A stretch of DNA of 64,000 bases from Tribonema minus (lineage: Eukaryota; Sar; Xanthophyceae; Tribonematales; Tribonemataceae). The DNA lies in NCBI GenBank assembly GCA_017506865.1, contig JAFCMP010000528.1, forward strand, positions 434,001 through 498,000, read 5' to 3'. Of the stretch, positions 8,404 to 60,040 are shown one piece after another (within the stretch, counting starts at the first letter, position 1; every line of letters begins with the position of its first letter). Both the position numbers and the translations under genes were made by a program. The notes under the pieces are model-generated. The model was not told the DNA's origin and did no database searches. It worked only from the letters and a program-made list of their open reading frames with translations.

Positions 8404-11400
8404 ATGGGATCGGGCTCGAGCGCTCAGAGGAGGTCTGCAGGGACACAGGTGATACGTTGTACAGGAAGGTTGTACAGTTTAAAGAGTTGGTCACTACCGC
8501 GGCCAGTAAGTCAGAGACTGCGATGCCTTGCGATGGACACGGACTCGGCGTGTCTGCGATCAACAGTACCTACTACCTACTATAGCAAGTAGTAATCCCC
8601 GGACTCGTGCTGGCATGAGCTGCAATGAGCCTGTGATGCCAGTTATTGCTGCTGCCTGACGTTTGATTAGCTCTGCTACTGGCAGCAGGATGAGTGTAGA
8701 AGTGAATGTCCGCGTGGGACTGGGTCAGGCGCACAACGCAGACAAATACAGCCCATCGTTGAAGGCAAGCGCGGTGTGCGTGTGGTGCGCCAGTCACACT
8801 GAAGCTATTGTGAATTTTTGTTGATTGACTGAGTCCAGCCCTGACATGTTTCAGCCAAACACATGCATTACTGATTCTTCGATTCAACACAACAACTAAC
8901 CAATTGGATTGGCCAACCACGCTGTTGTGCAGGCAGCTGCAGCAGTTGGTCAAAACTTGCACATCCTGACCAATTTCAATTTGTGAATACAAAAAAGTTC
9001 TTTGAATTTCACAAATATGCAGTTTTGTGTCGATGCAGCCTACATTGCAGTTGTGAACGCAGGATCAATGTCGCAAGCTACAGTACAGGGCTTATGAGCT
9101 ACAAGGCTCGATACTGAGTTCAGGGAAACAAGGCTGCTGCGGTTGTGTGCGCAGCAGCGGAAAGAGGACACCTGGCAGCCTCAGTTGAGCATTCTGCTGT
9201 GCATGACATCAGGCATGTCTGGATTAGGGTTCAGGTCAATGTGAGCTAGGGTTGGGGCGAGGTTTAGGCCTAGACTAAACACTTTGCCTGAGGAGGATCG
9301 AGGTTCAGCAAGTTGTCGTCAGCAACCGGCGATGATCACCTCCAGCTGTGATCCCAGTCGTGACATCAATTTTAGGTGATGCCGTCACCATGCTCCGATT
9401 CATGGTGCCCTGTGATTGCAGCCTCGTCTCAACGCACTGCTCACCCCTCTGCTGTGGAGACCCACTTGAGCTGTGCAACAGAATCGTCAGAGAAAGACAA
9501 AGCTGACTGAATGAAGCCCGCAACTGAGAGCCCATGTATGTATGCATAACTTCAAGTTCATGCCTCTGCCGCAACTCCAAGACCCTGAATGGCCCGCAAA
9601 CTGAGACTTGAAATCGGAGCACGCCCAAAGTATTATGGTATATTTGACACACGTGTGAGATTTTCTTGAGCATTCTGGTGTCACAAGCGCAATGAAATTG
9701 GGCAGCTTGGTGCGAGTGCACCCGCCAAGTCCCAAGTCCATGAGCTCAGCGTGCTCACGCACCACTACGTCCGTGCCTGGGGACCTCAGGTTGTCCACGA
9801 TCATTCACTTCCCGCAACGGAAGCATCACGCGCCACAGCCCATAACTTCAACTTCAACCCCCCCCCCCCGTCCCCCTCGTCCGCAGGCCGGCGCCGCACC
9901 GCAGGCCCCCCCCCCCACGGCTGACGCCACCGCCGCCGCTCACGACTTCAACTCTCTCAAGCATAAGTACCTCAGCGCCAAGCACACGGGCGCGTCCAAC
10001 AAGGACATCTTCAATACGCTCACGGAACACGGTGGTGGCAATAAGGCGGCGGCGGCGTCGCGCAAGAATGGGCGGACGGCGTCCGGGTCAGGGGCGATGC
10101 TGCCCCCCGCGGGGGGGGCGTACGTCATTCAGGACAGGCACAACAGCCCCGCTAACAGGTACTGTACGGGGGGGAGGTATATTGTGCTGCGGATGCGAGA
10201 TCAGGCCACGGTTTAACGTTGTCTGTATTTGGCGGGTGACAGCGATGCTGCCTCCTGCGGGGGGGGCGTACGTCATTCAGGACAGGCACAACAGCCCCGC
10301 TAACAGGTACGCCTGTAGGGGGGGAGGGGGGGGGGGGGCGCTGCGCATGCAAGATCAGGCCACGGTTTAACAGTGCTGTGCAATTTGATCTGTCTTTGGC
10401 GGGTGACAGCGATGCTGCCCCCCGCGGGGGGGGCTTACGTCATTCAGGACAGGCACAACAGCCCCGCGAACAGGTACTGCTGTAGGGGAGGGGGTACGCT
10501 GCGCGGCAATTGCGAGATCAGGGCGTGTGTAGACAGTGCGCTGTGTTTGGCAGGCGACGACCGGTGTGCAGGGTGAAGCGGGCGTCCGTGACAGCGCTGT
10601 TGACCGGGGGGTGGGGGGGGGGGTGTCTAGCTGACAAGGGACAAAACATATGAATGCTTTAGTCGGGTTGTTGAGCCAGTTGAGCACTGTGCTTGATAAA
10701 AGTTTGTGGGGTTGCAGTCGAAATGTCACCACATGTATATGCCTTGAAGCACTTTTCATAACCTACTGAGGTTGCTCGCTGCCACACACGCCGCCGTGAA
10801 GCGGCGCCACGCAGCAAGCGTCTGTTGACAAAGCGGCCATGCCTTCTAGTAGGCCCATATGAGGCTTGTATGGCTGTGGCATTTTCAGAGAAACATCTGA
10901 GTATGCCCTGCAAACCACTTTCATATGTGCTCGCTGCACACGCCGCTGAGCAGCGCCGCGCGGCGCGCCTCCATCGGCCGCGGCCTCCGGCGACCACGCC
11001 GTGCATCTGTGACAACACGATCATCTTCTTGTGGCGCGTTTGAGTAGCGCTCACTGTCGCCTCGCGCCCATTTGCCGCGCACCTACTGCACTGCTGAGCA
11101 GCGCCGCGCGGCGCGCCTCCGTCGGCGCCGTGGCCTCCGGCGACCACGCCACGTATCTGTGATAGCACGATGATCTTCGTGTGGCGCGTTCGAGTAGCGC
11201 TCACCGTCGCCTCGTGCCCATTTGCTGCACACCTACTGCACTGCTGAGCAGCGCCGCGCGCCGCGCCTCCGTCGGCGCCGTGGCCTCCGGCGACCACGCC
11301 AAGCGCGCGCGCCGCGGCCAGATCTTCCAGCGCGGCATCGACTTTGCCGACACGGCGCGCGCGATGCGCAAGGGCACGGAGCCCCTCGACACCACCAAGG

Positions 11401-14400
11401 AGGCGTTTCTGCCGGAGACGCGAGCGCTGCTGCACGCCGCCATGGGCAAGGTGTTCTTCACGGGGGGGGACAGCGCTCAGGCGGGGCTCGCGGACGCGGT
11501 GTTCGACAGGCTGCTGGACGCGTTCGAGCGGCGCGCGTGCGCGCCCGGGGAGTGGCTCATGAAGGAGGGGGAGGTGAGCGCTGCTGATAATGTACACTTC
11601 AACTGTGAAGTTCATGGTTTGACAGGCTGCTGGACGCGTTCGAGCGGCGCGCACGCAAGCGGCGCGCGTGCGCGCCGGGGGAGTGGCTCATGAAGGAGGG
11701 GGAGGTGTGCGTTGATGGGGGTTAAAACTTCAAATTTGAGGTTCATGTTTTGAGCGCCTCATTTGATGCGGCGTTCAACAGGCTGCTTGACGCGTTCGAG
11801 CGCCGCGCGTGCGCGCCAGGGGAGTGGCTCACGAAGGAGGGGGCGGTGAGTGCTGCTGAGAACGCAAAAACAGTGTGAACTTCAATGTTGAAGGTCATAT
11901 TTTGAGCGCCGCGTGCGTGCACGCCGGGGGAGTGGCTCATGAAGGAGGGGAACAGCGCGCTGATGTGTAGTTCAATCTTGTGTCATGTCAGCCTCAATCT
12001 TGAAGTTCCGTGTCACACCTGATCATGGTTGTGTGCGCGCCGGGGGCGTGGCTCATTAGGGAGGGGGAGGTGAGCGCGCTGATGTAGACTTCAGCTTTGA
12101 AGTTTGTGTCAAAACAGGTTTTTTTTCTGAGCGCCGTGCACATGCGCGCCGGGGGAGTGGCTCGTGAGGGAGGGGGAGGTGAGCGTTGATGGCCTAAATC
12201 TTCAAATCTGAAGTGCATGTCACACACAGGATGCGTGTTGTGGCAGCAAGCCAGGGTATGGGGGGCAGCAGGGGGGCATCGGGGGGCTGGGGGGTCGCAC
12301 AGCCGGTGTGTCCGAGCTCGCGCGGAGAGTGGGTGCGTAACAAGAGATCTGAATGAATTGCAGTACGCTGCAAACAAACCAAGGACAACAACACAATCAT
12401 CATCTGCATTGACAGATGCGGAATGTATAATGCGCGCTATAACAGTGCCTGGGAGCTGACCCCCAGCCTACCCCCCCCCCCCCCCCCCCCCAACCCTCTG
12501 CAGGAGGGCGAGAAAATGTACATCGTGGCCGAGGGCACCCTGGAGGTCTTTGTCGGTGACGAGAAGGTGCGCGACATCGGGCGCGGCGACGCCGTCGGCG
12601 AGCTCGCACTGCTCTACAGCGCGCCGCGCAGCGCCTCCGTGCGCGCCGCCCCCGCCGCCGCCGACGCCGACGCAGCGGCAGCGGCGCCCGCCGCGGCGCT
12701 GTGGTCGCTCGCGCGCGACGCGTTCCGCGAAGTTCAAGCGGTGACGTCGTGCGAGGCGATGGTGGCGCGGTTCGAGGCGCTGAGCGCTGCCCCCGCACTT
12801 GAAGTTGTGGACCGCTACGCGCTGAGCATGCTGGCGGGGGCGGCGGAGGAGGTGACGCTGCGCGCGGGCGAGGCGATGGTCGTGGAGAAGCAGGCCATCA
12901 CCAGGTGCGCGCATCGCCTGTTAAAGGAATTGTTGATGCTCTTGTGCTTCAAGAATGGGTGTGGGTGGTCTTGACGGCGGTAGGTATGCCGAACTGACAG
13001 GTTCAGTTCAGTCTTTGCATTTTCATGAAAAGATGTTGAGCTTGGGAGGCGGAATAGCCCAGATGGTCAATGTGCGTACCGATTGCAACAAGGTGTCAAT
13101 GGCTCTGTCGCAAAGGACACCAAGTTCAGGTCAGCGACATTGCATACTGCATCTCCTGCTCCACACCAGCCTCGTCCACCTGCCCCCCGACCTTTGTACC
13201 TCCAGTGTATTGCAAGCAGGAGTCCTTGCACAGCGGCATTCGCTGTGTTCGACGCTGCTACTGGCCCATTCTTGCACACCCCTTTGTGCTGCACACGGAC
13301 TGAATCACACCTCCACCAAAAGCATCATCCGCCCCTGCCGGCACCCCCCTGCCCCCCCCCCCCAGGTGCATCCTCGTCGACTCCGGCAAACTTGAAGTCA
13401 CAAGTTCAAACACGCGCGGGCGCATGGAATTGGAGCGTCTCTGTGGCGTTGCTCGCTCAAAGGGCGCGCCTCCGTTGCTCTCAGGACCGGACCTGGGACC
13501 AGGACTGTTCCTGGAATCGGGCGCGTTCCTGGGAATGCCGCTGCTGCTGTGCGCCGGCAAGGGGAAGCGGGGGGCGTGGACGAAGGCCCCCGCGAATAAG
13601 GCCAAGGGCCATGTGAGTGTTCGGCGAGTGTGCGTGTGGCTTTCGGGCGAAGCGCTGTGCGGGATGTGTGCGTTGGTGTTGTGCAGCGGTGGGGGCTGTG
13701 CGGGACTGAACGTGCGCACGTGTCATGCTGCTGGATGAGGAGACTGGAGCTGAGCCTGCAGAAGTGTTCTGTGGACATTATGGGGGGCAGGGGGGGGAGT
13801 TGGGTGTGTGGGGGGGGTATCAAATGCCAAGTTGACCGTTCATCACCCTGACTCAAACACCAGTTGGCCCAGCTGTTAATAGTGCCGTGCCAGACAACAA
13901 CACTAGATCCGCCACACACAGGACGGCTGTTTGTGGCTGATCTGCCAAAAAAACGTGCAATGCGCTATACTTGTCGCAGACATTATTATTTGCATGAGGG
14001 GGCCCGGATGTTGGACACCACCACTTGTATCTCAGCACTGCTTCATGACCACTACCTCTCCCCCATCTTTGCTGCGCACTGACTGCCGCACTTGACAATG
14101 ACGCTCCCTCGGCTTGTCTGATCAGGGTCACAGCTAACCCTTGCCCCGACCTTAAAATGTGCCAATATCTCTGAAGTGCTGTCTCTGCCCACGAGAGCAC
14201 TGCCACTCAAGCCTCTCAACTGCTGCACCCCCACACACACACCCCTCCCCTCCTGTTCCCCAGGAGAATGAATTTCCCGGCGCGGTCTGCCCTGTAACTG
14301 TCACTGCGCTGGAGCCCACGCGCGTGACCGTCTTCACGGTGGCGCAGTTTGAAGCAGCCGCGGGGCCCGTGTCTGAGGTGTTCAGTCAGGCCATTCAGGG

Positions 14401-17400
14401 GCGTCCCAGCGTGCTGCGGCCGATGGGCATCGTGGCGGAGGCGGCGCACACGCAGCAGGTCAAAGTTGAAGTTGAAGTTAGCGCCACCGCTTGAAGTATT
14501 CAGTCAGCTCATGCATATCCGAGCGTGCTGCCGTCGTGGAGGCGGCGCACATGCAACAGGTCAGTGTTGAGGTTGACGTCACCCACTTGAAGTTGTTGTC
14601 AGCGTATATATACAAGCGTAATGCTGTCGCGGAGGCGGCGCACGCGCAGCAGGTCGGTGTTCAAGTTGGTGTCACCACTGAAGTATTCAGTGAGCTCTAC
14701 TTACATACCAGCGTGCTGCGGCCAATGGGCATCATGGTGGAGGCGGCGCACATGCAGCAGGTCGGTGTTGAAGTTGGCATCACCACTTCAAGTTTCAGCC
14801 AGGTCATACATGCACATGCACACAAAAGCCGGCCCAACGTGCTGGCGCCCGTGGCAGAGGCTGTGCACACGCAGCAGGTCAAGGCTGAACTTTACGCCAG
14901 CACTCAAAGGCACGCAGCAGGTTGGACGCATGGTGTCAGCAATGAGTGTTGTCGCGGAGGCGGCACATGTAGCAGATTTGTGGTGAAGTTGGCATCAAGA
15001 GTTGAAGCAACTATCTGCAATGTGAGAAGCACACGTCGACGCTAAGCCAAGCACCACACGCGTAGAGCCAGACTTGCAGAACTGAGGATGTGTACCAATG
15101 TAGACGGCTGCAGAGGAACCCAGAGGCGTGCTCGCACTTGCTGAGCACTGATGCCCAAAGAGGCATGCTCGCACTTTGGTGCGGCTGCATCATATGTGCC
15201 TTCATGCTCGCTGCGTACTTCCACATGCTGTGCACATGCAGTGCGTGAGGCAAGGGGCAACAGAGTTGACGGTCACGTTCTCATGCTGGTTGCAGGAGCA
15301 CTTTGAGCCAAGCGAGTTCCAGCAAGTGCAGTTCCTGGGAACAGGCAGCTTTGGGAGAGTCAACCTCGTCAAGTTCAAGGATGCCGCGCGACAGGAGCGA
15401 AGCGCAACATGCCGGTAAGTGTGTACTTTAAAGTACATGCCCCAGTGCCTGTTGTAGCAGCGCAGCTCACGCGTAAGCAACTTGTTCAACTTCGTACGCG
15501 AGATTTTCCCCTGTACCTGCACCCCGACTGTGCTGGTGTACCCCCCGATGTCCCTCCTGGCCATAGCACAGTAGGGTACCCAGCGCAGCCCGCATGTATC
15601 CTGCCTACCCTTGCCTGGCCCTGTCTGCAACACTCTGTCTGATCACTGACGCGCTGCTGACTTGGTTGCTGTGCCGCTCCACTCATCCATTTCATTTTGT
15701 TCCTTCATTCATTCATTCATGTCATTCACTCATTACGTGCGCAGCGGCGTCAAGCACTTTGCGCTCAAGGCGCTGGCGAAGCAGGCCGTCATTGACTACG
15801 GCCAGCTGAGCCCGTCTCATTTATTCATTCATCCATTCGTCATTGATTTCATTCATTCACCACATGCGCAGCGGCGTCAAGCACTTTGCGCTCAAGGCGT
15901 TGGCAAAACAGGCCGTCATTGACCGCGGCCAGCTGAGCCATGTCAAGGACGAGCGGCTGCTGCTGTTTGCACTGGACCACCCCTTCATCCTCAAGCTCTA
16001 CGCCACGTTCCAGGACCATGACTCCATATTCCTGCTCACGGAGGTGAGCGCTGCCATTGCAGTGAAGGATATATATCATGTGGTAACTGAGCAATGGGGG
16101 GTTGCACGGCTGGGCTTCTGTACTTTTGCGTCACAGCCATGTTGAAGTTGCTGCCTTGAAGCGACTTAGCTGACGGAGGTGAGCGCTGCCACCGCCGCAA
16201 GAATCATATATATCATATGGTGACTGAGCATCGGGGGCTCGCACAGCTGCGCTCCCGTCCTCGTGCGTTGCAGCCAATTTGAAGTTGCTGCACTTGAAGT
16301 GATTAGCTAGGCACATCTGACATCTGGCCCTATTTGTGGGCGCCCTGCAAAGCTGAGGTCACGAGTAACCAAGAGGTAACTGGCTGTTTATGAATTCTCG
16401 GGGCGTGGGAAACTTGCCGTGCACCAGACTCAGGAGTTGATCAGTGTGCACCATTGCTTGGTGCACATGCTGCCTCTAGTGTAGCCTTTTACCCATCCCT
16501 TGCCCTGACTCTAGCCCTTACCATGGAGGTGCACCAGAAGTGCCAAATACGCTTAGAGTTATTTTAATATGGCTACATACATCAAATCAGTGACCTCGTT
16601 TTGAAGCCTTGTGATGTAAACAGAGTACTTGCTTTGGCACGAGTTGAGCACCATGCATTTTTATGTCAGGCGTGTGCATAATCATGGAGGCAGCTGTGCA
16701 TTGTGTTCATGCTTGGCCACACCATCCTGACAGTGCGTGCATGGCCAGGCTAATCGTCGTGAGCAGGCAGTGATGGCCAACAACCTTTGAAGCGATGCTC
16801 AAACGGCCCGACGCACAAAACATGAATAACATCAGCAGTGACTGCAACAGAACTCATGATGCCAATACGCACGCCGTGGAATTCGGAATGTTGCCCATGA
16901 TTGCACTCACGTGCACATGACAGTTTGGTTGCTGCAACAAGATTTGTGTTATGTGCTGATCGTGATGATGCTCAGGCGGTGACAGCGGGCGAGATGTGGA
17001 GCGTCATCTGCAAGGGCTGTACCGGCCACAAGGAGTGCAACCTAACCCTAATCCTAATCCTAATCCTGACTCTCACCCTAACCTAACTAATGCGGAACCC
17101 TGCCCATGGCGCAACCACGTGCAAGCAACACCTCTGTGTGAAAAAGTTGGTGTTATCGTGTTGGTCATGGTGATGCTCAGGCGGTGACGGCGGGCGAGAT
17201 GTGGAGCGTCATCTACGAGGGCATCACAGGCCACAAGGAGGGCAGGCTGCCCATCAACCACTGCGTCTTCTACGCCGCGTGCGTGCTGGAGGCACTGGCA
17301 CACATGCACGGCAAGGGCGTCGCGTATAGGTACATGCATACGTACCCACCCCTTTTAATCACTGCATGTTCTACGCGGCATGCGTGCTGGAGGCACTGGC

Positions 17401-20400
17401 TCACATGCTCAGCAAGGGTGTTGCACACAGGTACGTACCTGCCTCATGAACCACTGCGTGTTCTACGCGGCGTGCGTGCTGGAGGCGCTGGCTCACATGC
17501 ACGCCAAGGGCGTCGTGTACTGGTGTGTACTGGTGTGTGTACAGCCGTGACCTCAAACGCGACACGTCTTCAAGTTGCGTGCACTCGCCAATCTAGGTTG
17601 AAGTGCGTTGCAGCCGCCTCTTCAGATAAATTTCAAAGGGCGTGTGTCGCATGTACTCCAGGAGCACCGATTGCGCGTCATGGAGGTGCACGCTGCCGTG
17701 TCGACATCTGCCTATCACAGCCACCGAGCGAAGCGTCACCGTCAGTTTCTGCTACTGATTTGCATACGTATGTGGCACCTGCTATATATGCGCCCTCTCG
17801 CGTGGCGCAGTGTATGGGGATTGGTTGCATGTCTGCAGGCAACCCCAAGCCATGTGCCCCCCAATATTTTGAAACAGCATATCTGAAACGCGCTGCGCGC
17901 TTCTCCCCACAATTTAATTGCAGTGCATGAGTGCCTTGGCATGATGGTACCCTCACTTTTTCCCTTGATCACGCCAGAACAACAGCATACGCGTAGGCCT
18001 GGGGTCTGGGCTAGAGTTAGGACTCCATAGGGGGCAGGCAGAGGTAATATAGGACATGAGCAATTTACACACAATCACCGTCTTGGACGTCACTGCTGTA
18101 TTGACAGACATGAATCACAGCGGTAGGCCACACAAACACAACCTTCAATCACGAACATCAACTCCATGACCACAAGGCTTGGATTGACTCGCTGCTGCAG
18201 GTTCCCATTTCAGAAGCTCAACCAGCTTGAACTGGTCACCTCATTGCTTCACAAGTGACCTGCGATGATCCAACTTCAGCCTGATTTAGATGCACATTGT
18301 TCCCTGGAATGAGCATGGGCCCATGCTGAGCGCTGCTGCTGTGCTGCACCCTGCTGCACGTTTTGCCGTCCCGGTGCAGGGACCTCAAGCCTGAGAATAT
18401 TATGCTGGATGGGATGGTACGAAATGTTGGCTCATGAGCCGTGTTTCTGAATGCTTCAATAAATTAGACGCACGTTGTGAAGCAGCAAGCTCGTGACCTG
18501 TCATGTTCTGTGCGAGAAACGTTCCGCATCAGGACCAATATGCTCGGCAGCAAATTCCCTCAGTTGACTTGGGTGCTGAGCTTGCGTTGATCAGAGTGCC
18601 TTTTTGAAGCACTGCGTGCCTTATTTAAGGCCCCATGCAGGGGCGAAGCACCGCATGACAGCGCTTTTGAAATACTTCAACAACTGCATACTGGATGTCC
18701 ATTGTAAGCACAGCATACTTGTTACTTTTCAAAAGTTCGAAGTATTGCAAACGGCATCGTCTCGCCCAGCGCTTTGAGCATCAGCCACCTTGATGCCATC
18801 CGCTAACTAAGCAATGCCTGCGGTTTTGCACGGACCATTGTCCTTGCCGCACCATGTCCTTTCTATTGATTGTTGCATAGGGCGCAAAATAGCGCACATG
18901 ATTGATGTCAAGCTTGCTTGCTACCAGGGCCTACACGCATCTTGTGACACCTTCCAAGAAGTGTCCCAATGCGCATTCACACTCACCTCAGCACGTACTT
19001 GTGGGCATGCATTGCCAGGGGTATGTATGTTTCACATAGCCCTCACCATGCCCTACCTACCCTGGTCATGCCCTGGGGCGCGCCGCAGGGGTTCCTGTGC
19101 ATCATCGATTATGTAGTGCCTTGACAATTATTACCACTACAGCCGGGTGCTGCCAGTGTGCTTGAGCATCACCTCTTTGTAACTCTCACCGGTAAGGAGC
19201 TGACTGTACCTACCCCCCCCCCCTTCCCACACACACACGGCGCACACTGCAGGTGTTCCTGCGCATCACCAATTAGTCCCTTGGTGATTATTGCCACTAC
19301 TGTCGGGTGCTGCCAGTGTGCTTGAGCCTCACCTCTATGCAAACACACACACACAACGCGCGCGCGGCGCACACTGCAGTGGTTCCTGCGCACCATCAAA
19401 CTGTGTAAATCTCAATGTTTACAAACTGACTGCGGCAACCTCCCCCCCCCCACACACACAAACACATACTGCAGGGATTCCTGAGAATCATTGACCTCGG
19501 CTTTGCCAAGAAGATCCCCTTTGTCGTGAACGTAGACGGCAAGCCAGAGATACACCCCAAGTCGTACACCATGTGCGGAACCCCGGAGTACCTCGCACCG
19601 GAGTTCATCTTCAACAGCGGCCACGACAAGAGCGTGGACTACTGGGCCTTTGGCGTGCTCGTTTTCGAGTTCACCGCGGGGCACACGCCATTCCAGGTAC
19701 TTCAAGGCAGAGCATACCAGCGGCAAAGTAGAAACGCAGCCAAGTGCTCTGCAGACCTGTTGCTCGCACTCTCATTTGGGCTGCAGTTACAACTTTCAAA
19801 CCAACAGAAAATCTCATGTATGTGCCCTTGCGTCGCATCGCAGGCGCCCCAGGAGCCGCGGGACATGACCAATCTCTTCACGCGCATTGCGTGCTGCAAG
19901 CGGGACGGCGTGCGGTTTCCCCCGGTGTGTATACTTGAAGTACTATTCACATGCTGCTTCACCTTATATTGGTGTTTGAAGAAATGTACTTCAAAAAAGA
20001 AGTATATACTTTGGGTGCACCCTGGGAACAAAACCAAGCGTGTGTCTATGTGATGATAGGGGGGGGGGAGGACACCAGTCGGGAGCTAATGGTGACCCTG
20101 GCCCTGTTGTATGCGGCGCTGCTGCGGCATTGTGCGCTTTCCCAAGGTCCGCAACATTCGAACCAACATCCATATGATGTGCCTCAAACGCAACACACCA
20201 TTATTGCCATGACCTGTGGTTCCATGTACTTGAAGAAGTTTCGCGCTACGTAGGACCAGAAGTCATGGGTCCACACAGCTACTTAGGCTCCAGGACTAGC
20301 CGCCTTGTCCTGGTGGACGCTGTGCATGCCTGAGACCTAAGAGCAAGCCTTGCTGATGCTCTCATTACATGCCGTCACTGCGCAAAGCTGACCACTTGAT

Positions 20401-21777
20401 GAAGCTCAAGTTATGCATGCGCGTAGCCCTGAGGCAAGTCGCACTTACCCAAATACTCCTTGAAGTACATACCAACCCTAACCTCAACCCTGAATCAACC
20501 CCTAACCCTAACCCGAACGGTCCCTGTTCACACCCAGTCCTCATCGTAGTCCCAGATCTGCTCGTGCATATGCTCGATGCATATACCAGGTTGGCCACAG
20601 CAGGGGTGCCGAACGTCCGATCTAACCCTAACCCTAACCCTTGCTCAAGAGCAGCACAGGCAGACAAGTCTTGAAGAGAGAGAACACGATGTGACATGAG
20701 TGAAGCAAAGGGAACGCAAGGGTCCCCACAAGGTCTCGTTGCCGTGTTTGATGTTGATGCGAAGAGGAGGACGGCTTGAACTTGTACGGACAGCGTCAGA
20801 CAGGCATAGCCCTGTTGCCAATAGCTACCGGGTAGGCTGCACTACCAGAGTTGTGAAGCTGTGCACACTGTTTTCATGTGCCCTTTGATATGCAATCCGA
20901 ACTAGTTGCACCTGATTCGCATAACGTCAGGTCCAGCTCTACATCCCATACTTCGAAGCATCAAGGTCTAGGGTGACCAGCCAGGTCTGCGTATGACCTG
21001 TGCTGGCAATGAGATGTGACTGTCGATACTAACCTACCCATATCACCTGCATCAACTTGCAGTCCCTCCGGGCAGCACAAAGCTGACCGCAACCTATATC
21101 TATACCTACTTCCAAGACTTTTGACCGAGGGATGCCGTTACGGCCCGTGCCTCCTCCACCAGGGGCCCCCCAAAGCAGCCCCATGCAGCCCGACCAGCCC
21201 TCGACGCTCTCTCTCGTACCTCTATCAACCACACTATGCGGTTCACCCCCGCGGCAACCCTAGTCCCCCTACCCCCCCTCAACAATCTCTCTCACACTTC
21301 CATCAACCTCACTATGCGCTTCACCTCCGCATTGACCACCCCCCCCCCCCCCAACCTTGCAACCCCCCCCCCCCCCCTCTTCCCCCAGGACTTTGATCGC
21401 AAGACAAAGTTGTGCCACCATTCCCACCTGTCTCACCCAAGCGCCTGCATCGAACCCTGAATCCACCCCCCCCACCCCCCCACCCCCCTCCCCCCCCAGG
21501 ACTTTGACCGCAAGACCAAGGGGCGCCCCACACGCGACCTCGTCTCGCGCCTCCTCACCGCGGACGCGAGCCAGCGCCTCGGCGCGCTCACGGCGGGCGC
21601 CGACGGCGTGCGCGCGCACGCGCACTTCGCCGGCGTCGACTGGGCAGCGCTCACCGCCAAGCGCGCCGCCGCGCCGTGGGCGCCGCCGCGCGAGCTCGGC
21701 AAGCTCGGCGCCGACGACGATGCGCACAAGGACGTGCCGGTGTTTGCGGGCGACCAGGCGGCGTTCGCGGACTGGTA

Positions 21778-21778: not shown

Positions 21779-21812
<34 letters not shown>

Positions 21813-23433: not shown

Positions 23434-25942
23434 TAGCGGCTTGTAGCTATGTAGTTGGTGTGCCAGATCCATCCATGCCATGCATCGACCCAACACTGTC
23501 ACTGTGATTTATTGAGTCTAAGGTCCACACTGCAATTGCATCTGTGACGCGCCATGAACTGCTGAGCACTGGCCCATTTCAATTCAGCTGCACAGGGTCA
23601 GCTGCGGTCTGCGCTTTGAACGCTGCTGGTACTTTTTTAGTATTCTTGCTTCGGGCGCAAACAAGCCCAGATGGTGAATGTCAAGCTTTCTTGAGTAATC
23701 GTTGCTGTACCAGAATTTACACGCTGGTACAGTACCTGACTCGCGCAGATTCACCTCTACCTGAACACATCCGGTCCACAGGTAGTTCTTAACATCAGCT
23801 TTCACCAGACTTCAGTTGCAGATATGCCCGCACAAGATTGAGCATGCATGCTGCTCATACAAGGCACTGCAGCAAGCAGTCCGCACAACGCAGAATCTCC
23901 TGTGAAACGAGTCCCATTCCTCGGATGATCTAGGCACTGCTCAATTTCCGTGTGGTTCCCGATAGCGGGGGAGCCCCGGGGGAAGCAAGGGCTGTGTCAC
24001 GTGGCTGAGGCGTGCATTACAAACTGTGTGCTGTGGACAGGAAGTGTGTCTTCCTCTGTCGCTCAAGTACTATCCACCCACTGACAAAACCAACTACTTG
24101 ACAAACTGCTTCTGGGCGAGAGCGCTGCTCTCACTCTGATGCGTGATCTATGCCACGTTGCTTTGTATAGTGATCATGCAATGGGAAAGCTGCTGCAGAC
24201 TGGGCCAACTGGAAGCCGTCCAGTTCATGACAGAACAAGAGTCAAGAGTACATGGAGCGAGGTCGGACACTCAGGTGTCGGGATACGCACAGAGGTCGCG
24301 ACAGCGTAAGGAATTCGCAAAGCGTACAGACGCGAACGATGGGGCAGGTATGATTCCAGCAAGAACGGGGAAGGGGGTAGGGTTTGGCCTAACCCTAACC
24401 CTAACCCTAAAATCGATTTGCCATGAAAAACAAACCCGCGCAGGCGACGATGTGACACTTGGGACATGCAGCAAGCGAAGGCAACAGAATGCGCACAGAA
24501 TTTGGCTTGAGGCCAGAGAATCGCTGTTTGCCATAATCGCCTCTGATCATTGTCTGTCCCGTGTCTCGTCCCCCATGTATCGGTACGCGCTACCACCGTG
24601 CTGGAGCTTACGCTGACATATGTACAGCGCGCTCGAATAGCACCTCTTGAACGCTGGCGTCACGCGCGTCCGTGCGTAGCCGCACCAAGCGACAGTCGTT
24701 ATCGCTTTGAATGGCGCACATGGCCGACTGTTGAGCGCTGCTGCTGTGGCGTCGTGCGCATCCTGGCGTGCAAAGGTGTTTTGCAGCATGCGGCCCAGTA
24801 GCTGCCGTGCCATCGCACCCAGCGCTCGACAGTAACGTCACTGCAGCGGCTGTTGCGCGAGAGCGGTCGCAAGTGCCTACATGTGTAGCGCTGTATCGCG
24901 AGGCCGCCCGACGAGTGACTCAATTACTTGCCACTGACTGGTCGCTGCAGTGTGATGCAGTGCTCAACCGAGCACGGCGGTAAGCTGTTGTTTCATCATG
25001 GGCCGCTGCTGAAATTCATCGCTGTGTCATGTACGCACTGCCGTCAGTGCCTTTGTAGATCACAAGTCCATGGAGTCCGCCCCTGCGCAAGGCACCACGA
25101 CAGCACGCAAGACAGGGTGTCATTCAGTCACAGGGATTGCCCTCAAGTGGAGACCACAACCATACTTTGAGGTGCACACGTCAGCAGCTGACTCCAGCAG
25201 CCAAAACATTGTACTGGGATGATTGAGAGAGGTGAAGATATACGGGTCGGATTACACAATTTGGCGAGGTGTTTTGGCAAGGTGCTGCAGTCAGCATGCA
25301 GTTGAAAGTCAGCCAACACAAGTTGAAGTCTGGCATTGCAACACAAGTTGAAGTCTGGCATTGCAGCAACAAGGAAGAGGGCTTCACACAACGCTTTCCT
25401 CGTCGTTCAACCGCAAGCGTGCTCTCGGCGTAACCCTAGTTGTGCCACACGTCCAAACTGCCAAGCCTCGCTGGACCGCGCAACCAGCTAGGGTTACGGT
25501 CAGGTCAGGGCAACGTTAGATCAATGTATCAACATGTACAGAGCCTTTGCCATCTAAGTAGGCGCCATGCTTTAGAGACAGCAAGACATGTACTGCTGAG
25601 CATCAGGGGTCTTGCACGCATCTGCATGTAAGCGGCACGCATTGTAGACTAAATATGGGCTTAGGGTTGCAGGTTGTCAACACTATACAGATCTTACATC
25701 CCTGTCTAGTTTAAATCCAACTATGTGGTACAAGCAGGGTGAAAGCGACGCGAAGTGGTGCTGATGACGTCAACAAGGCTCAGTAAAGAGAGCCTTTACC
25801 TGGGGATTGCGCAAAATTGGCTGGCCCCATGGCGCTGATACTGACAACACGGTACACAAGTCTGAAGTGAGCCTTTGCCTGAAAACTGCCTTGTGATGCT
25901 GATGATGACGACACGGTACACAAGTCTGAAGTGAGCCTTTAC
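23434..25942. other. Intergenic stretch, probable 3' end of MED8
   Basis: No convincing exon chain. A TTAGGG-type tract lies at 24390-24412 and a 24-bp tandem duplication (ACAAGTTGAAGTCTGGCATT) at about 25318-25365. The last small exon of MED8 (minus strand) should lie in or near the right part but was not identified. Confidence 0.45.
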
Positions 25943-26370
25943 CTGAGGACTGTGCGGGGTTGGCTGGCCGCATGCGGCCGGTGCCGGATGCTGCCGTGAT
26001 GGAGGCCAGAACGGCCTGACTGGCTTTCTCGTATGCATCCTCGGCGCTCTGCACCGCCGTGTTGTACTGCAGAGGGGGCAGCGGAGAAGTTCAATGAGAA
26101 GTTGAGGTTGGGGTTTGGCGCTCTGTACCGCCGCGTTGTACTGCAGAGTGGGCAATGCAACAGTTGAATCAGGAATTGTGGTAGAGGTTTGGTTGTACTG
26201 CAGCGAAGATAATCAACAACAAGTTGAGGTAAGGGGTTGGCAGCTGTCAAACTCGCAGCGCTGCATGGGAGTATGCTTGAGAGTTCAATGTGCAGTGTGG
26301 GTTGAGGGCTCAAAGAGGTAGTGTGCCTGACGTACATCCTATGTACTGCAGAGTCGGCAGCGGAAAAGTT
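25786..26370 (-). repeat. Echoes around MED8 exon 5
   Basis: On the minus strand the donor of exon 5 (CCTCAG/GTAAAGGCTC) is echoed near 25786-25815 and 25868-25890. Its acceptor region (CTCTGCAGTACAA) is echoed near 26120-26155, 26185-26205 and 26335-26370. This repeats the pattern of the kinase genes in an unrelated gene on the other strand. Confidence 0.8.
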
Positions 26371-29300: not shown

Positions 29301-29415
29301 ACCAGCTGGGATTGCCATTCATCCGCAGCTCCCTCTCAATATGGTGAGTAAGAGTGGTACGGATGGCATTCGCCTGATTGCGGACGGCGTTGAGCGCCGG
29401 AATAGATGACTCCAT
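25943..29415 (-). CDS. MED8: Mediator complex subunit 8 (5 exons found, last exon missing)
   Basis: Exons on the minus strand: 29303-29415, 28118-28242, 27107-27140, 26735-26861, 25943-26066; their phases join exactly (2/1, 1/2, 2/1, 0/0). The product reads MESSIPALNAVRNQANAIRT, then PSWPELINSFQVV...LADL, then TRPLAEMDAADAKL, then YNTAVQSAEDAYEKASQAV. This order matches MED8: an N-terminal helix, the WP-x-LL-x-SF segment, the TRP.PEME segment and a C-terminal helix. MED8 sits in the head module of Mediator and links RNA polymerase II to activators. About 174 residues are assembled, and the open final phase requires one more short exon to the left. The start Met at 29415 is the first plausible one; an upstream exon is possible. 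The gene is divergent from PKG2. Confidence 0.75.
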
Positions 29416-39100: not shown

Positions 39101-42100
39101 AGTTGCCATGATCAATGTATGGTTACGAGGTTTGTCTCTGCCATGTTACCACACAAACAAAGATGAACTTCTTCAAGTTACAAGTCATTCCAACTCACGT
39201 GACTCTCTGCTTGTGCCATGCTCCGCTGCTGCAGAGATCTCAAGCCCGAGAACATCATGATGGATGCTCAGGTATCTACTTGTAATGCTATGCTAATGCT
39301 GATGCGATGCTCAGCCATTTTGCACCAATCCTCACCTAAAAACGCTGGTTTGTGTACCAGCTTTTGCATGCTTGACTCCAATACATAACATAATACTTCG
39401 AGGTTTGAGTTCAAAGTGTACTGAAAGCAAATGTTCATGCACTTCCACTCCAAATTGCATGACTTGATATGGTGCACTGCTGAGTTTACAGAGCCACAAC
39501 ATAACGACGCTGTCACTACCACTGGCTGTACAATGCGCCGGGCGCAAGCAGCAGCAAGCAATAATGTGGCACTCGATGCATGTGTCGCGACAGCGTTTTG
39601 CTGACGGTTTTCCTGCTAGTGTGTGCGTCAACAGCATTGCTCTGATTGCAGCTGGTGTACGCATGCCAACAGCGGTGGCGCACAAGTAGCAACTGGTCAG
39701 GAGCTGACTGTGCCAACCCCCCCCCCCCCCTTTGCGGGCACACGCCGCAGGGCTACCTGAGAATCATCGACCTCGGGTTTGCCAAGCAGATCCCCTTTGT
39801 GGTTCATGTGTGGGGGAAGACAGAGATACACCCCAAGTCGTACACCATGTGCGGAACCCCCGAGTACCTCGCACCGGAGTTCATCTTCAACAGCGGCCAC
39901 GACAAGGGCGCCGACTACTGGGCGTACGGCGTGCTGGTGTACGAGTTCACTGCGGGACACACGCCGTTTCAGGTACTACTTTGAAGTATATATTTGTAAA
40001 CTTGTGCAATTTGCATGGGTCCAAAGGGATGTCTCTGTGCGCCTGTAGTACGGCGTACTCGTGTACGACTTCACTGTGGAACACACTGTTTCAGGTACTG
40101 CATGATTGTAAGCTTGTGCATTTACATGGGTCCTAGGGGATGTGTGTGTGTGCCTGCGGGACGGTGTACTTGTGTATGAGTTCACAGCGGGGCACACGCC
40201 GCTTCAGGTACTTGCTCGTAAAGCTGTGCACTGTCAAGAATCCAGGCCCCAAGTGAGGCTGGATGTCTGCGTGCAACTGCAGTCGAGCGATGACACCACC
40301 TCTAACCCTATTCCTAACCCTAGGCACATACTCGTGAACTTCTGCACTTCAAATGCTAAAAGCCTCAAAGAGAGGCCGGATGTCTGTGTGCGACTGCATT
40401 AAAGTGGTACACACCGCCTCCAGCAGCGCTGCAATCAAATAGCTGTGGGCATTGTAACGGCAATGTGTGCATTGTGAGCAGCCGGCGATATGTAAGTGCC
40501 ATGGCCGCTGATGTCAAAACGCCGGTGCTCGGCATGCAGAGTGGACCTGTAATCTGGCGTACTACATCTTGCACTTGCAGCAGCGTGAGGGATACATGCC
40601 TGTCAGGCACACTGCTTCCAACTTTATGTGAGAAGTTGTACACAAAAGTTGAGTTTGACAAAGTGCAGCATTCCAACGTGGTACCAAGACAGTCAGGCAT
40701 CAGCAGCGGAGGCTGCAGTGATGCATGCCTGTAAAAGGGGGACTGGGGTTGCTCCAAGCTTTGCGCAGGCACAAAAGGTCAGTTGGCCGCCGTCAACCCC
40801 TATGTGAAGCACACAGTACGTGCCTCGTAATGCCGCACTAGCGCATGTGCCAACATGCGCGCTCGCGCGTGCATACCTACTGCATGCATCCTCGCTGAGC
40901 CGCGCTGCGCATGTGCCCCCGCTGATCTTCCTCTGCATTGACAGTGGCCATCGGAGCCCATGGATATGACAGCGCTGTTCACGCGCATTGCCAACTGCAA
41001 GCGCGAGGGCGTACGCTTCCCCAAGGTGCGTTGCAGAAGCGTGGCCCTTTCTGCATGTAGCCTTCTTGACGCCGCAAGCTTGCGCTTACAGTGGTTGAAA
41101 TGTTGATGGATGTCTTGACCGCGCAGCCATTGCACTCAAGTAAGAGCGTCGACGCTGTTAATATAGCGCGAAAGCCAGTGATGTGCGCCAGCTGCCGACT
41201 GCAATCGTGAAGGTGAATGTTTGTGCGTTTTATTTATTTTCGCTCAGGGCGCGGAAAAAACCCAGATGAACGGCATCTAACTTGAAGCTTGCTATACGGA
41301 GTTTACATGTCGTGTGACAGTCTGAAAGTGTCTCGATGACAACCACTCAAACGCCGCCGCCGCCAAATGGCATCTCGGGATCCTCCCCTACATCAGGCAG
41401 AAAATCATTGTGACCCTTCCGAGTTCAACCTGGTATTGTGCTGCTGTTGCACCCAACATCCGATGTCGTCCGAGCACTTCAACAGTCAAGCTTCCTGCTC
41501 TGTGTGTGGTGCGGGAAGCGTTCACGTCAGTTCGCGCAGGCGCCCCAGTGCGGAACATCGCAGCTCATTCACGCAGCCTGACCTCTTCTTGGCGGCCCCT
41601 CTCCAAACTCTAGCATGACCCCCCCCCCCTTCCCCTCCCCCAGGACTTTGACCGCAAGACTAAGGGGCGCCACCGTTCCCACCTGTCTCACCCTAGCGCC
41701 TGCATCAAACCCTGACTCCCCCCCCACCCCCTCTCTCCCCCCAGGACATTGACCACAAGACCAAGGGGCGCCACTGTTCTCACCTGTCTCACCCCCCAGC
41801 GCTCGCATCGTAACCCTAACCCCGCTCTGACCCCCCTCCTCCCCCCCCGATCCGTCCTCCCCCCCCCCCGTCCCCCCCCGCAGGACTTTGACCGCAAGAC
41901 CAAGGGGCGCCCCACGCGCGACCTCGTCTCGCGCCTCCTCCAGTGGGAGGCGCCGCAGCGCATCGGGAACCTGCAGGCGGGCGCGGACGCGGTGCGCGCG
42001 CACGCGCACTTCACCGGCGTCGACTGGGCCGAGCTGCTGAGCAAGGCTGCGCGCGCGCCGTGGGTGCCCACGCGCAAGGTCGGCAAGGACAAGGTCGACG

Positions 42101-42162
42101 AGGGCGTGCACAAGGACGTGCCCGCCTTCACGGGGAACCAGGCGCTGTTCGCGGACTGGTGA
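30181..42162 (+). CDS. cGMP-dependent protein kinase-like, gene 2 (13 exons, predicted 872 aa)
   Basis: Exons: 30181-30282, 32735-33027, 33343-33712, 34117-34484, 35366-35594, 36212-36409, 36807-36925, 37811-37982, 38563-38711, 39235-39271, 39751-39972, 40945-41025, 41884-42162. Exons 7-13 have the same lengths as in gene 1, and all phases agree. The N terminus MGSGWSAQ has Gly2/Ser6 for myristoylation, followed by a basic KRKKS. A basic stretch SRRFRRGRSNKRSYSD stands where gene 1 has RRASV. cNBD-A keeps GELALIYSAPRSASV (E288, R297). cNBD-B has GMPLLL where the Glu of the binding cassette should be. Kinase: GTGSFGRV, K568, E587, Thr gatekeeper T616, YRDLKPEN (D668), DLG (D686), T-loop T711, C terminus FADW. 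Expected role: cGMP-responsive Ser/Thr phosphorylation, probably membrane-tethered. Exon 1 is placed by resemblance to gene 1 and by phase. Confidence 0.92.
32490..32750 (+). repeat. Echo array of PKG2 exon 2 acceptor (4 copies)
   Basis: A unit of about 60-65 bp (ACTCAGGCTGAACCGCTGCT... to GCTGCCACAG) is repeated four times. Each unit ends in an intact CAG acceptor or a near copy followed by GACATCACGGCGGGCG-like exon sequence. Only the last copy (CAG at 32732-32734) runs into the coding exon. The array multiplies branchpoint and acceptor sequence. Confidence 0.9.
33770..34050 (+). repeat. Echoes of PKG2 exon 3 end
   Basis: Three decayed copies of the GGGGGAGTGGCTCATGAAGG border (near 33780, 33908 and 34015), separated by AACTTTGAAGTT-type spacers. 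The same border is echoed in the same intron of gene 1, but the copies differ in number and sequence. Confidence 0.85.
34612..35000 (+). repeat. Echoes of PKG2 exon 4 end
   Basis: Copies of the ACCATGG.CGTGGAGAAGG / ACACCATCGA..AGGTGCGG border occur at about 34610-34648 and 34962-34998, downstream of the real border at 34455-34490. Confidence 0.87.
35200..35440 (+). repeat. Duplicate of PKG2 exon 5 start
   Basis: The first ~75 nt of exon 5 (ILVESGRLEISS.TTSSDAAIA) occur at 35209-35280 and again in the full exon from 35366. The upstream copy keeps an acceptor (TTCACAG) but no donor. Confidence 0.9.
38080..38220 (+). repeat. Echoes of PKG2 exon 8 end
   Basis: Two downstream copies of the border ACAGCGTGTTCCTGCTCAC (gatekeeper strand) at about 38090-38117 and 38190-38213. 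Confidence 0.85.
39905..40215 (+). repeat. Echo array of PKG2 exon 11 end (3 copies)
   Basis: The border coding YGVLVYEFTAGHTPFQ plus CAG/GTACT is repeated at about 40049-40098 and 40162-40211. The third copy is nearly intact (DGVLVYEFTAGHTPLQ). Confidence 0.9.
41226..41400 (-). mobile_element. 5'-truncated RLE-LINE fragment in PKG2 intron 12
   Basis: About 170 bp matching the last residues (EDPEMPFGGGGV and stop) and 3' untranslated end of the LINE at 1-4353, in antisense to the kinase gene. It ends in AAAATAAATAAAA (minus strand). Only the 3' tail is present, as expected from aborted target-primed reverse transcription. Confidence 0.85.
41637..41925 (+). repeat. Echoes of PKG2 exon 13 start (3 copies)
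   Basis: CAGGACTTTGACCGCAAGAC followed by TAAGGGGCGCC-like sequence occurs near 41641 and 41743 (as GACATTGACCACAAGACC) before the real exon at 41884. Gene 1 has the same arrangement (copy near 21388 before 21500). Confidence 0.9.
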
Positions 42163-42489: not shown

Positions 42490-42538
<49 letters not shown>

Positions 42539-44314: not shown

Positions 44315-57268
<12,954 letters not shown>

Positions 57269-57664
57269 GGATTCTTTTGAAATCACAGTCGCTCTCGACC
57301 TTCAACAGGGACCCCGGAAGTCCGCGGGTAGAGAAAAAACGCTTTTTGCTTGCCGAGAGAGCAAGTCCAGGGTGAGGGGACGCGATTTGCGGCAGATGCC
57401 ACCGAGGCTACACTGCTGCATGAACCCCTCCCCAATCTGTCTCCGGGAGAGCACTTCCCCCTGGGGGGACACTGTGTGCAAAAAGAGCTCCTTGCTGCAA
57501 ACCTTACGGCTCTGTGTGTGTGCAAACCGTAAGGCGCTCTGCGCGTGTGTGCAAAACCTTACGGCGCCCTGCGCGTGTGTGCAGAAAAGTGCGTGAGCAG
57601 CGCAATTGTATCTGCCGCCCAGCTTGCGTAAGGTCCGGGAGGACGCCCGCGATCTCGATAGCCG
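57269..57664. promoter_or_regulatory. Divergent promoter region Ric-8/BART gene
   Basis: 396 bp between start codons. At about 57500-57590 there are three tandem units of roughly 25-30 bp built on CCTTACGG or its inverse CCGTAAGG plus GCGCGTGTGTGCAAA; a related TGCGTAAGG lies near 57625. The palindromic core repeated between divergent starts makes it a candidate shared factor-binding array. No TATA box is seen. Confidence 0.45.
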
Positions 57665-59823
57665 ATGCCGCGGCTCAGCCAGGATGACGACTACGACTTG
57701 CTAGACAAAGTCCAGGTACGTGCGAAGTGAACACATTGAGCGCAGGGAACCCTCATGTCAGCACTACCACAAGCAACTGCCTCAGTCTATGTATGCAGTG
57801 TCATGTTAGGTGCAGTATTCCGGACGGCTCCATCGAGCCCTTCCAGACACAGCAGTACTGGCATGAGTAGCGATACGCCTGATGCAGCAGGCAGTTGGTG
57901 AGGTAAATCAGAACGGCATATCATATGGCTGCTGGCGTTATAACCCTAAAAAACCATTCTTGTAAGTATGATTGATACTGCCCAAAAACCCTGTAAATTG
58001 GTACATGGGAATGGTGACCTTGACACATGCGTACACTTTGTGCGACGCCTACGTGCCATGCAGATACGACATGCTCCAACAATCGCAATTCTTCTCAGCA
58101 CTGAAGAGCAGTTTGATGATTTTCCAATCCGCAGAGTGGTGCACTGACTACTGTAACCCGACAAGTGATGACTTCTGACCTTCGGTTTACATGCATACCT
58201 ATGCCTCACCATCGCTGCGACTCTGAACAAGAAGCCGCTCTGCCGTGAGCGCGCAGGCATTCTGCTTCTCGCAGCAGCTGGAGGAGGACTTTGCCACGTT
58301 CACAGAGAAGAACATAGGGCCGTTCCTCATGGCGCTGCGGGAGGTTGGCGTGCAGCATGCCTCCAGCATGGAGCACAGGTGAGAGTTCAAACTTGAGTTT
58401 TGCGTATCTGCAGGAACGTCGCCTTTCCAAAAATTCCGATTTCCAAAAGTTCCGAAAGATCAGAATTGAGTTTTGCGTGTTTGCATGAGCGTCGGCTTTC
58501 CGACAGCATGCTTTACAGTGTGAATGAGGGAGGCAGCACGTGGGCAAGCGACAGCACGGGAGGCGTGTCCCTGTGAGCATGGAACCTGACTGCAGAATTT
58601 CATGTGGTGCCAGTGATGGGATTACCCCCCCCCCTCCCCCCCCCTGCTTAGCCCTACTCGGGCGCAGGCAAAGCTGGTGTGCACACACGTGTCCTCCCCA
58701 GTAGCACAATAGCACACCTTTCCTTAAGGCCTGACACTGTGCGTGCAGACGATTGTACCTCAAAGTACAAGAGACCATGCACTTGCATAGCTGACTCGGC
58801 CCGCACGCGCAAGTTTGCCTGTGGTGATGCTCCATGGTCGCATGTATGCGCGCCATTTCTGAGCACCTGCCAGGCGCAGGCATATTGACGGTGCATGTGA
58901 CGAGCAGTGCCAATCTTTATGATATCTTTCAGATATGGGCACTTAACGCACCAGCGAGGGTCACTGACTGCAGCGGCCACAACTGCAGACCGTGCAGAAT
59001 CATCATGGTGCATGTAGTGTTGCGGGCATCATCGTTTGCTGGCGTAAACTTTGCACAACACTTAGATTAAGGTGCTGCGAAGCACTCGATCGTCCATGCA
59101 TGAGTGCGCACATGCGCAAGTTGCAAAGACCCCAAGCGCAGAGGTTTGTAAGGGCAGTGCTTCAACATGTAGCACCAAGTCAAAGATCACCATCGCACAA
59201 CAAATCATATGAAACACACTTTCACTGGCATTACGGGGGGGTATATAGTGCAAGGTCGTTAGCAACCGCTTTTTGTGGCAAGCTGCCACGTACACAAAAG
59301 CTGTTGCAAGTGGCCTGCACTCACAAGCACTTTCCCCAGTGTTCCTCAAGCTCACACGGTGTGAAAAGCAGCTTCCTGCACTACCTTTGTGCATACTCTT
59401 TCCGACAGCAGCAAGGCGCCACCCTGGCCGGTACCTCGACCACCTTAATTGCAAACTCCTCTACGCCAGCGACAAACGCCACACTGACCTCTCAAGTTCA
59501 TCGCAACGCCCGATTTACCGTGTGCTCAGCCTATGCGGTCCAGGACATGATATACAACCTCAGGTTGAAGACACCGTAACCTCAACTTCAAGCCGCCTGC
59601 CCCCCCTCTCTCCAGGCTCGAATTCACGGAGACGTACCGCAAGTTTCTGGACCACTTTGAGGCCAAGATCCAGTCGCACATCGAGGCCGTGGGCGGCGAC
59701 GACGCTGAGTTCCAGCGGCAGTGCCGACGAGCGCTGATGGACCTGCCGCAGGGGTCTGAGCGGCGCTTTTTCATCGAGGCGCTGCTGGCGACCACAGAGT
59801 ACCAGCGCTTCTTCGTGCTCATG
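57665..59823 (+). CDS. BART-domain protein (ARL2BP/CFAP36-like), 3' end not found
   Basis: Exons 57665-57715 (MPRLSQDDDYDLLDKVQ), 58257-58378 and 59616-59823, with phases joining exactly (0, 2/1, 0). The product reads FCFSQQLEEDFATFTEKNIG, then EHRLEFTETYRKFLDHFEAK and QGSERRFFIEALLATTEYQR. This order (acidic F-x-x-F helix, then an LEYTE-type helix, then a terminal helix with F..FL.M) is that of the BART domain, which binds Arl2/Arl3-type GTPases and is found in ciliary proteins such as ARL2BP and CFAP36. About 127 residues are assembled; exon 3 ends at ATG/GTGAGG, so at least one further exon is needed. None was recognised before the LINE at 61241. Confidence 0.6.
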
Positions 59824-60040
59824 GTGAGGCGCATGCATTGACTCTAACCCTAAACCCTGTCACTAACTCTGGTCTGGCCACCACCGAGTACCAGCGCTTC
59901 TTCGTGCTCACGGTGAGGCGCATACATGCTGACTCTTACCCGAAACCCTTTCACTTACTCTGGTCGGAGCGTCGCTTCTTCACTGAGGCGCTGCTGGCCA
60001 CCACCGAGTACGAGCGGTTCCTCATGCTCATGGCGAGGCG
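59795..60040 (+). repeat. Echo array of BART-gene exon 3 end (3 copies)
   Basis: The border coding LLATTEYQRFFVLM plus the GGTGAGGCGC donor is repeated at about 59876-59922 and 59985-60040 (ATTEYERFLMLMARR), with AACCCTAAACCCT tracts between copies. Confidence 0.9.

Follow-up and report, generated by a model that had tools for sequence, protein, structure and literature searches.

Introns of the yellow-green alga Tribonema minus carry local copies of their own exon edges

A 64,000-nucleotide (nt) stretch of the genome of the yellow-green alga Tribonema minus (Xanthophyceae; C525:434001-498000 in an assembly of 158 Mb and 554 contigs), referred to here as the window, contains two paralogous genes for cGMP-dependent protein kinase, PKG1 and PKG2, whose introns hold copies of the exon edge beside them, which we call echoes. 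The copies are direct, local and on the same strand as their source, are diverged to different degrees, and carry exon, splice site and intron sequence together. Repeated local duplication across splice junctions, as a first-pass annotation of the window had proposed, is borne out in unrelated genes on many contigs. We consider it probable that the echoes are small local DNA duplications (about 50-300 nt) spanning exon-intron junctions, made by break repair and tolerated through exon-proximal splicing.

The six exon matches listed for the deposited T. minus PKG protein, P0001, are 98-100% identical to PKG1, and two further paralogues are present in the same genome, PKG3 on contig C522 and PKG4 on C212. 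A PKG protein was placed on PKG1-4 with a purpose-written spliced protein-to-DNA aligner, and from residue 221 on the intron positions are common to all four. The test set comprised 38 introns at ten shared positions (10, 10, 8 and 10 for PKG1, PKG2, PKG3 and PKG4, respectively, PKG3 being without two of the ten), and does not depend on any single gene model; modelling is less certain for the upstream PKG exons and, in PKG3 and PKG4, for the 355-520 stretch. The remaining genes were modelled by a small trained gene finder, which recovered most PKG exons and also called several echoes as exons. No near-identical PKG1 allele is found among the assembly matches listed, and an Rfam scan of the window at gathering thresholds gave no match.

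Each intron was aligned with its two exon edges, defined as the 60 nt of exon immediately before it and the 60 nt of exon immediately after it. The intron's own donor end outscores every non-homologous exon end in 21 of the 38 introns, where about one would be expected, and its own acceptor start does so in 10 of 38. A score of at least 40 is reached by 25/76 own edges (17/38 donors and 8/38 acceptors), against 8/2596 non-homologous edges and 0/76 reverse-complement controls. The first-pass annotation had suggested comparing matches to the intron's own exon with matches to other exons, and in our sample own matches are the more frequent, so that its observation is not refuted. As the copies match their own exon and only rarely others, the echoes are not a dispersed family. 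Misassembly, which the same annotation had raised as a possible undoing of its claim, is unlikely because the copies are diverged (65-98% identical, apart from pieces of 20-23 nt) and the pattern recurs on C525, C522, C212 and twelve further contigs. Echo-free introns are also numerous.

All the cases listed in the first-pass annotation, in both kinase genes, Ric-8, MED8 and BART and on both strands, could be found once its exon numbers had been assigned to coordinates, three of them being weak. A copy is present downstream of each donor it named in PKG1 (exon ends 10158, 11573 and 14458) and PKG2 (33712, 34484, 37982 and 39972), and the BART exon 3 donor (59824) is followed by two copies, the last 60 nt of this exon scoring 70 where none of 300 control stretches exceeds 27. 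For its acceptor cases, repeats are present in PKG1 at 11252, 15872, 19475 and 21500, with those at 19475 (a 72% match failing the own-versus-other test, 20 against up to 46) and 21500 (32 against at most 21) being weak; the control scores of 46 probably stem from a 37-nt exon flanked by junctions 667 and 679, whose window of 60 nt extends into the intron. They are likewise present in PKG2 at 32735, 35366 and 41884, where the exon model at 32735 is uncertain, and in MED8 at 26066, where the echo is weak (38 against at most 24). Strong echoes absent from that annotation lie at PKG1 17181 (acceptor) and 17329 (donor), and Ric-8, for which it gave no exons, has 10 edges scoring at least 34. This score is reached by 13/48 edges in the other predictions of the window (0.27 expected; reverse-complement controls 1/48), the remaining three being one in MED8 and two (2657 and 2908) in a reverse-transcriptase-like element, not a gene. 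The repeat length, previously put at 15-70 nt, needs correction, aligned lengths running from 20 to several hundred nt, and a single-exon 'ankyrin-like' gene offered as an echo-free contrast is uninformative, being intronless, and was assigned to no Pfam family.

Fifty-three copies were traced in PKG1-4, 41 on the donor and 12 on the acceptor side, and the junction is reached by 49/53 (38 donor, 11 acceptor). Of these, 35/38 donor copies retain GT and 10/11 acceptor copies retain AG, where copy identity would predict 31.6 and 9.4, respectively. The exon part of the nearest copies (20 donor, 9 acceptor) measures 10-111 nt on the donor side and 16-71 nt on the acceptor side, and intron sequence, 3-391 nt of it, is included in 27 of these 29; the aligned source ends before the junction in two donor copies, both of which belong to the uncertain junction 520. 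Some units overlap their copy in tandem, others lie 7-336 nt of other sequence apart, several with telomeric repeats. Donor cases exceed acceptor cases in the PKG genes, 17 to 8, as would be expected if an upstream decoy acceptor were less tolerable. There is no age order along the introns (Spearman -0.13, P 0.36), which led us to reject a 'conveyor belt' in which copies age outward from the exon. The signature of intron birth, in which intron ends resemble the facing exon, was found in 0/38 introns at a score of at least 24 on either side, and birth of the PKG introns by exon duplication was rejected on that ground.

The PKG4 copy at junction 221 is 97.7% identical over 86 nt and stands behind a 45-nt spacer with CCTAACCCTAAACCCTAACCC-type telomeric sequence, and the spacers at two more PKG4 junctions contain TTAGGG repeats, source-copy identities across the three being 97.7, 94.0 and 91.9%. 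At least three telomeric hexamers occur in 6/18 spacers of 10-200 nt, where random stretches taken from these introns give an expectation of 1.9 (P 0.0017). A simple tandem repeat was rejected as the whole answer for the recent PKG4 copies, in which an unrelated spacer separates the copies. The motif TTGAAGT was also considered as insertion filler and rejected, as it is not enriched in the spacers (1/18 against 2.2 expected). TTGAAGT/ACTTCAA is about 13-fold over-represented in the window (74 against 5.6 expected), falls largely outside predicted exons, at 13 per 10 kb compared with 4.6 inside them, and is also found in the C112, C522 and C212 stretches analysed. Interstitial telomeric repeats are very dense in and around the PKG4 introns (C212:895-922 kb), where 27 kb contain 45 tracts and 150 kb of C112 only 3.

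Local repeats are concentrated at exon edges. Of the 40 local-repeat families in the conserved PKG1-4 spans, 27 touch an edge, against 5.9 expected at random placement (P 7e-15), in a model that excluded duplications inside, or covering the whole of, an exon, and against 10.0 expected if exon conservation doubles the odds of recognition (P 5e-9). The recent age-matched subsets behave alike, with 16/27 touching an edge (3.9 expected, or 6.6 with doubled odds) in one and 11/17 in the other (2.2 expected, or 3.8 with doubled odds, P 1.4e-4). No family has both copies in exons (0/40), and 13/40 are purely intronic, one of which (PKG2 38039-38216) overlaps echoes. The excess is real in the PKG1-4 sample, although ordinary biases could explain much of it.

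Sequence-level analysis covered about 280 kb including overlaps, and wider reach was judged by protein-family searches in which matches were read exon by exon and an echo was scored as a second, shorter match nested within the profile range of a neighbouring exon. Nested pairs were found in kinesins (7 in 46 loci) and myosins (2 in 22 loci). In the CCT chaperonins, 11 loci contain five echo junctions, and three copies are present at one of these. The counts are lower bounds because only strong copies in conserved parts are detectable, and they exclude an ambiguous pair in CCT (C279) and another in HSP70 (C190). The 14 junctions are spread over 13 contigs, one of which (C522) also carries PKG3. 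Eight have downstream copies sharing the exon 3' end and six upstream copies sharing the exon 5' start, and in all 14 the nested copies match the exon end or start to within four residues. Other genes gave no clear echo. A UBR4 gene (PF13764, PF02207) on C112 has no passing edge among its predicted introns (0/47 donors, 0/46 acceptors), a difference from PKG (25/76 against 0/93; Fisher P 1.6e-10) for which UBR4 was given the more lenient threshold. Of the testable edges in a C529 kinase gene 0/6 pass, with a low-identity repeat (66-82%) near the locus end, and 22 HSP70 loci gave no clean echo and the one ambiguous pair. Below 80 kb of C112, 2/43 edges pass, the region's main prediction (30-43 kb) being a retrotransposon. 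Echoes are therefore widespread but patchy in T. minus genes, with kinesins, myosins and CCT having them and no clear case in UBR4, the C529 kinase and HSP70, and the genome-wide process envisaged in the first-pass annotation stands as to unrelated genes on many contigs but not as a uniform one. A regional effect as the sole cause of this patchiness was rejected, as an HSP70 gene at C522:954-958 kb has no nested hits about 3 kb from the echo-rich PKG3.

These features are consistent with a break-repair origin of the echoes. A staggered double-strand break would have both overhangs filled in and then joined, giving a duplication, and telomeric repeats or other filler would sometimes be added to an end first, giving duplication, spacer and duplication. 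Duplications containing a junction would survive because splicing at the exon-proximal site leaves the mRNA unaltered; the extra copy would turn into intron sequence and then decay, whereas duplications inside exons would usually break the gene. Introns would thus lengthen by taking up exon edges, gathering decoy splice sites as they do so. We infer the breaks, the enzymes and the use of the exon-proximal site, while the geometry of the copies, their locality, their inclusion of the splice site and their telomeric spacers are observed. An adjacent duplication in an intron must have a source that spans the junction, a requirement that does not apply to dispersed pieces of exon or to spliced-RNA copies, and at the 14 kinesin, myosin and CCT junctions the copy is always at the side and the exon end that the model demands. 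Several points weigh against this account. The duplication events are read from the sequence of one strain, and that splicing ignores the decoys is an assumption, because GT is kept in so many donor copies. The PKG donor excess is hardly repeated in the family searches (8 donor, 6 acceptor junctions). Rate differences between genes, such as the silence of UBR4, are not accounted for by the model, 12/18 spacers have no clear telomeric repeats, and TTGAAGT shows no enrichment in them. Finally, the excess of edge copies goes beyond random tolerated placement, so that plain tolerance falls short of a full explanation.

Ordinary minisatellite dynamics, in which slippage and unequal recombination make and expand tandem repeats everywhere in non-coding sequence, only those touching exons are noticed, and neither break repair nor telomeric filler plays a special role, would account for the several arrays that are tandem with overlapping units (e.g. 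PKG1 221, PKG3 221 and PKG2 753) and for the purely intronic families. It is nevertheless a somewhat unlikely source of the echoes, as the unrelated filler between recent copies is not a product of slippage and telomeric spacers are in excess of expectation. The edge enrichment could instead mean that splice junctions are mutational hot spots of breakage and duplication, through transcription-linked structures or exon-edge chromatin for example, which would fit the persistence of enrichment in the recent subsets and the recurrence of the same junctions across paralogues (the 221 and 667 donors 4/4 each; heterogeneity P 0.033). Base composition is a weak alternative to such hot spots, because the copies of purely intronic families are only slightly richer in GC than introns (0.566 against 0.54-0.60). 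However, an exon copy remains recognisable for longer, early copies probably arose in introns of smaller size, copies inside one array can re-homogenise, the recurrence of junctions may reflect ancestral arrays, and the UBR4 and HSP70 junctions are cold; we regard mutational hot spots as unlikely. As slower decay of exon copies, shorter early introns and re-homogenisation were only partly allowed for, no junction hot spot is claimed. The stronger proposal is that exon-intron junctions are true hot spots of staggered breaks and that telomerase and fill-in assist in rejoining them, with the exon edge being copied into the intron as a result; we hold it doubtful. If it were true, a single junction-directed repair process, at work in some genes and not in others, would account for intron length, intron telomeric repeats and the growing number of decoy splice sites.

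The copies might alternatively be used, as tandem alternative exons or donors adding short peptide repeats. P0001 has three inserts translated from echoes, one of 42 residues, one of 23 and one that is short, and GT retention in donor copies is slightly above that expected from identity. Yet the inserts are missing from all six aligned homologues, splice-site retention remains near expectation, and some of these echoes are also taken for exons by our gene finder, which uses nothing beyond base composition and splice-site patterns, so that the deposited model needs no transcript behind it; use of the copies is thus very unlikely, and the deposited T. minus PKG model seems to contain false repeated exons. 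Retro-copying, which the first-pass annotation had entertained and in which RNA-templated copies of exon ends are inserted into introns, has only the likeness of the copies to exon ends in its favour. It is highly improbable, since the copies are local and on the same strand, cross the unspliced junction (27/29 nearest copies run from exon into intron; 49/53 reach it) and in 0/76 edges match the reverse complement. The hallmark of a spliced-RNA copy, an exon-exon join with the intron absent, was not seen in the nearest copies, and their continuation into the intron argues that spliced RNA was not the template. Least credible are introner-like mobile elements or assembly error, which intron-borne repeats in many genes might bring to mind; the near-silence of the unrelated exons (8/2596 controls) and identities of 65-98%, unlike those of assembly duplicates, argue against the two, respectively.

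Introner-like elements, intron-associated repeated DNA, are known in several algae; the T. minus copies, unlike these, are private to each exon edge (own 25/76, non-homologous 8/2596). In mammals telomeric repeats have been inserted at breaks explained as staggered, with flanking duplication at some loci, simple duplication being the minority there (rodents 6/130 loci, primates 4/25, horse 3/66 plus two with mixed changes; PMC2246262, PMC7215372). The three PKG4 junctions similarly have short telomeric repeats inside genes between direct copies, whereas in T. minus duplication is prominent and many copies have no telomeric spacer (12/18). CST-Pol alpha fill-in at breaks with 3' overhangs, as short as 43 bp, gives small tandem duplications (PMC8355091), and these, like plant patch-mediated break repair, resemble the echoes in being local direct duplications made without pre-existing homology; the T. 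minus copies differ in being fossilised at exon edges across genes. Intron gain by tandem genomic duplication (PMC4974935; review PMC3443670) likewise involves a tandem duplication with exon sequence absorbed by splicing, a potato case duplicating an intron-exon piece, alongside mention of a further 83-bp duplication inside an intron (PMC4974935), but in T. minus existing introns grow and no new intron arises (0/38). Among the matches listed from titles and abstract beginnings in the open-licence literature there is no description of exon-edge copies filling introns, which is not proof of absence. Each ingredient is thus known, while the combination and its extent in T. minus appear new.

Transposons and small insertions are the usual explanation for intron lengthening. 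What is added to these introns is the exon edge of the same gene, repeatedly copied together with its splice site. If this were general in xanthophytes, it would offer a record of break repair inside genes and a natural experiment on how the spliceosome chooses among several near-identical donors, and gene models in such genomes may hold false repeated exons. Exon-edge repeats in deposited T. minus proteins are best held doubtful until checked against transcripts, a caution drawn from one protein.

Table 1. Genes and exon-edge copies in the window (window coordinates)
Feature	Position	Strand	Remarks
PKG1, cGMP-dependent protein kinase gene	9887..21775	+	spliced protein alignment; deposited protein P0001; upstream exons less certain
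PKG1 conserved exons (first six)	11252-11573, 12504-12904, 13366-13612, 14264-14458, 15296-15414, 15872-16043	+	
PKG1 conserved exons (last five)	17181-17329, 18380-18416, 19475-19696, 19844-19924, 21500-21775	+	
Donor echoes, PKG1 exon ending 10158	10094..10522	+	
Tandem array of PKG1 exon 11252 start, acceptor side	10945..11301	+	period about 149
PKG1 exon end 11573 and donor, with copies in next intron	11493..12220	+	about five diverged copies
Donor echoes, PKG1 exon ending 14458	14406..14892	+	
Acceptor echo, PKG1 exon starting 15872	15696..15939	+	68 exon and 52 intron nt, 86%; translated as exon in P0001
Acceptor echo, PKG1 exon starting 17181	16943..17244	+	CCCTAA-type telomeric repeats in spacer 17040-17083
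Donor echoes, PKG1 exon ending 17329	17247..17525	+	two copies
Acceptor echo, PKG1 exon starting 21500	21364..21520	+	
MED8 gene	25060..29588	-	gene finder, approximate model; name from the first-pass annotation, no Pfam family
Local repeats at predicted MED8 exon edge 26066	26043..26399	-	
PKG2, PKG1 paralogue	32735..42159	+	spliced protein alignment; intron positions identical to PKG1 from residue 221 on; upstream exons uncertain
Tandem array touching start of predicted PKG2 exon 32735	32513..32752	+	
Donor echoes, PKG2 exon ending 33712	33676..33988	+	
Donor echoes, PKG2 exon ending 34484	34450..35002	+	
Acceptor echo, PKG2 exon starting 35366	35200..35436	+	71 exon nt, 90%
Donor echoes, PKG2 exon ending 37982	37953..38216	+	
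Donor echo, PKG2 exon ending 38711	38645..38778	+	
Donor echoes, PKG2 exon ending 39972	39924..40212	+	
Acceptor echoes, PKG2 exon starting 41884	41619..41911	+	
Ric-8 gene	44315..57268	-	gene finder, approximate; PF10165, E 1.5e-14; model apparently takes echo copies as exons
Ric-8 exon-edge repeat	44780..44961	-	
Ric-8 exon-edge repeat	48995..49175	-	
Nested tandem repeats over predicted Ric-8 exon edge	51366..52110	-	periods about 285 and 120
Cluster of Ric-8 exon-edge copies	52871..53935	-	donor and acceptor sides
BART (ARL2-binding) gene	57665..59841	+	gene finder, approximate; PF11527, E 6.9e-7; model overruns likely exon 3 donor 59824
BART exon 3 end (donor 59824) and two downstream copies	59753..60041	+	decayed CTAACCCTAAACCCT repeats between them

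The reverse-transcriptase-like element is present in the window as two inverted copies, 97% identical over 2.8 kb, at 1579-4353 and 61239-64000. Its long open frame, to which Pfam assigns no family, has a YMDD motif, which we take to be typical of reverse transcriptases, and diverged pieces of one of its ends lie at 41222-41394 in the last PKG2 intron. An LTR (long terminal repeat)-type retrotransposon at C112:330-343 kb combines an integrase and its zinc-binding domain (PF00665, PF17921) with an upstream C-5 cytosine methylase domain (PF00145); retrotransposons that carry a methylase are known from other sources. Kinase or HSP70 hits with identical or near-identical scores on C144, C223 and C278, and on C90 and C179, suggest that these are redundant haplotype contigs, which could provide allelic empty sites. 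In contrast to the PKG genes with their many introns, the kinase domains that score best in this genome lie in single open frames spanning most or all of the domain.

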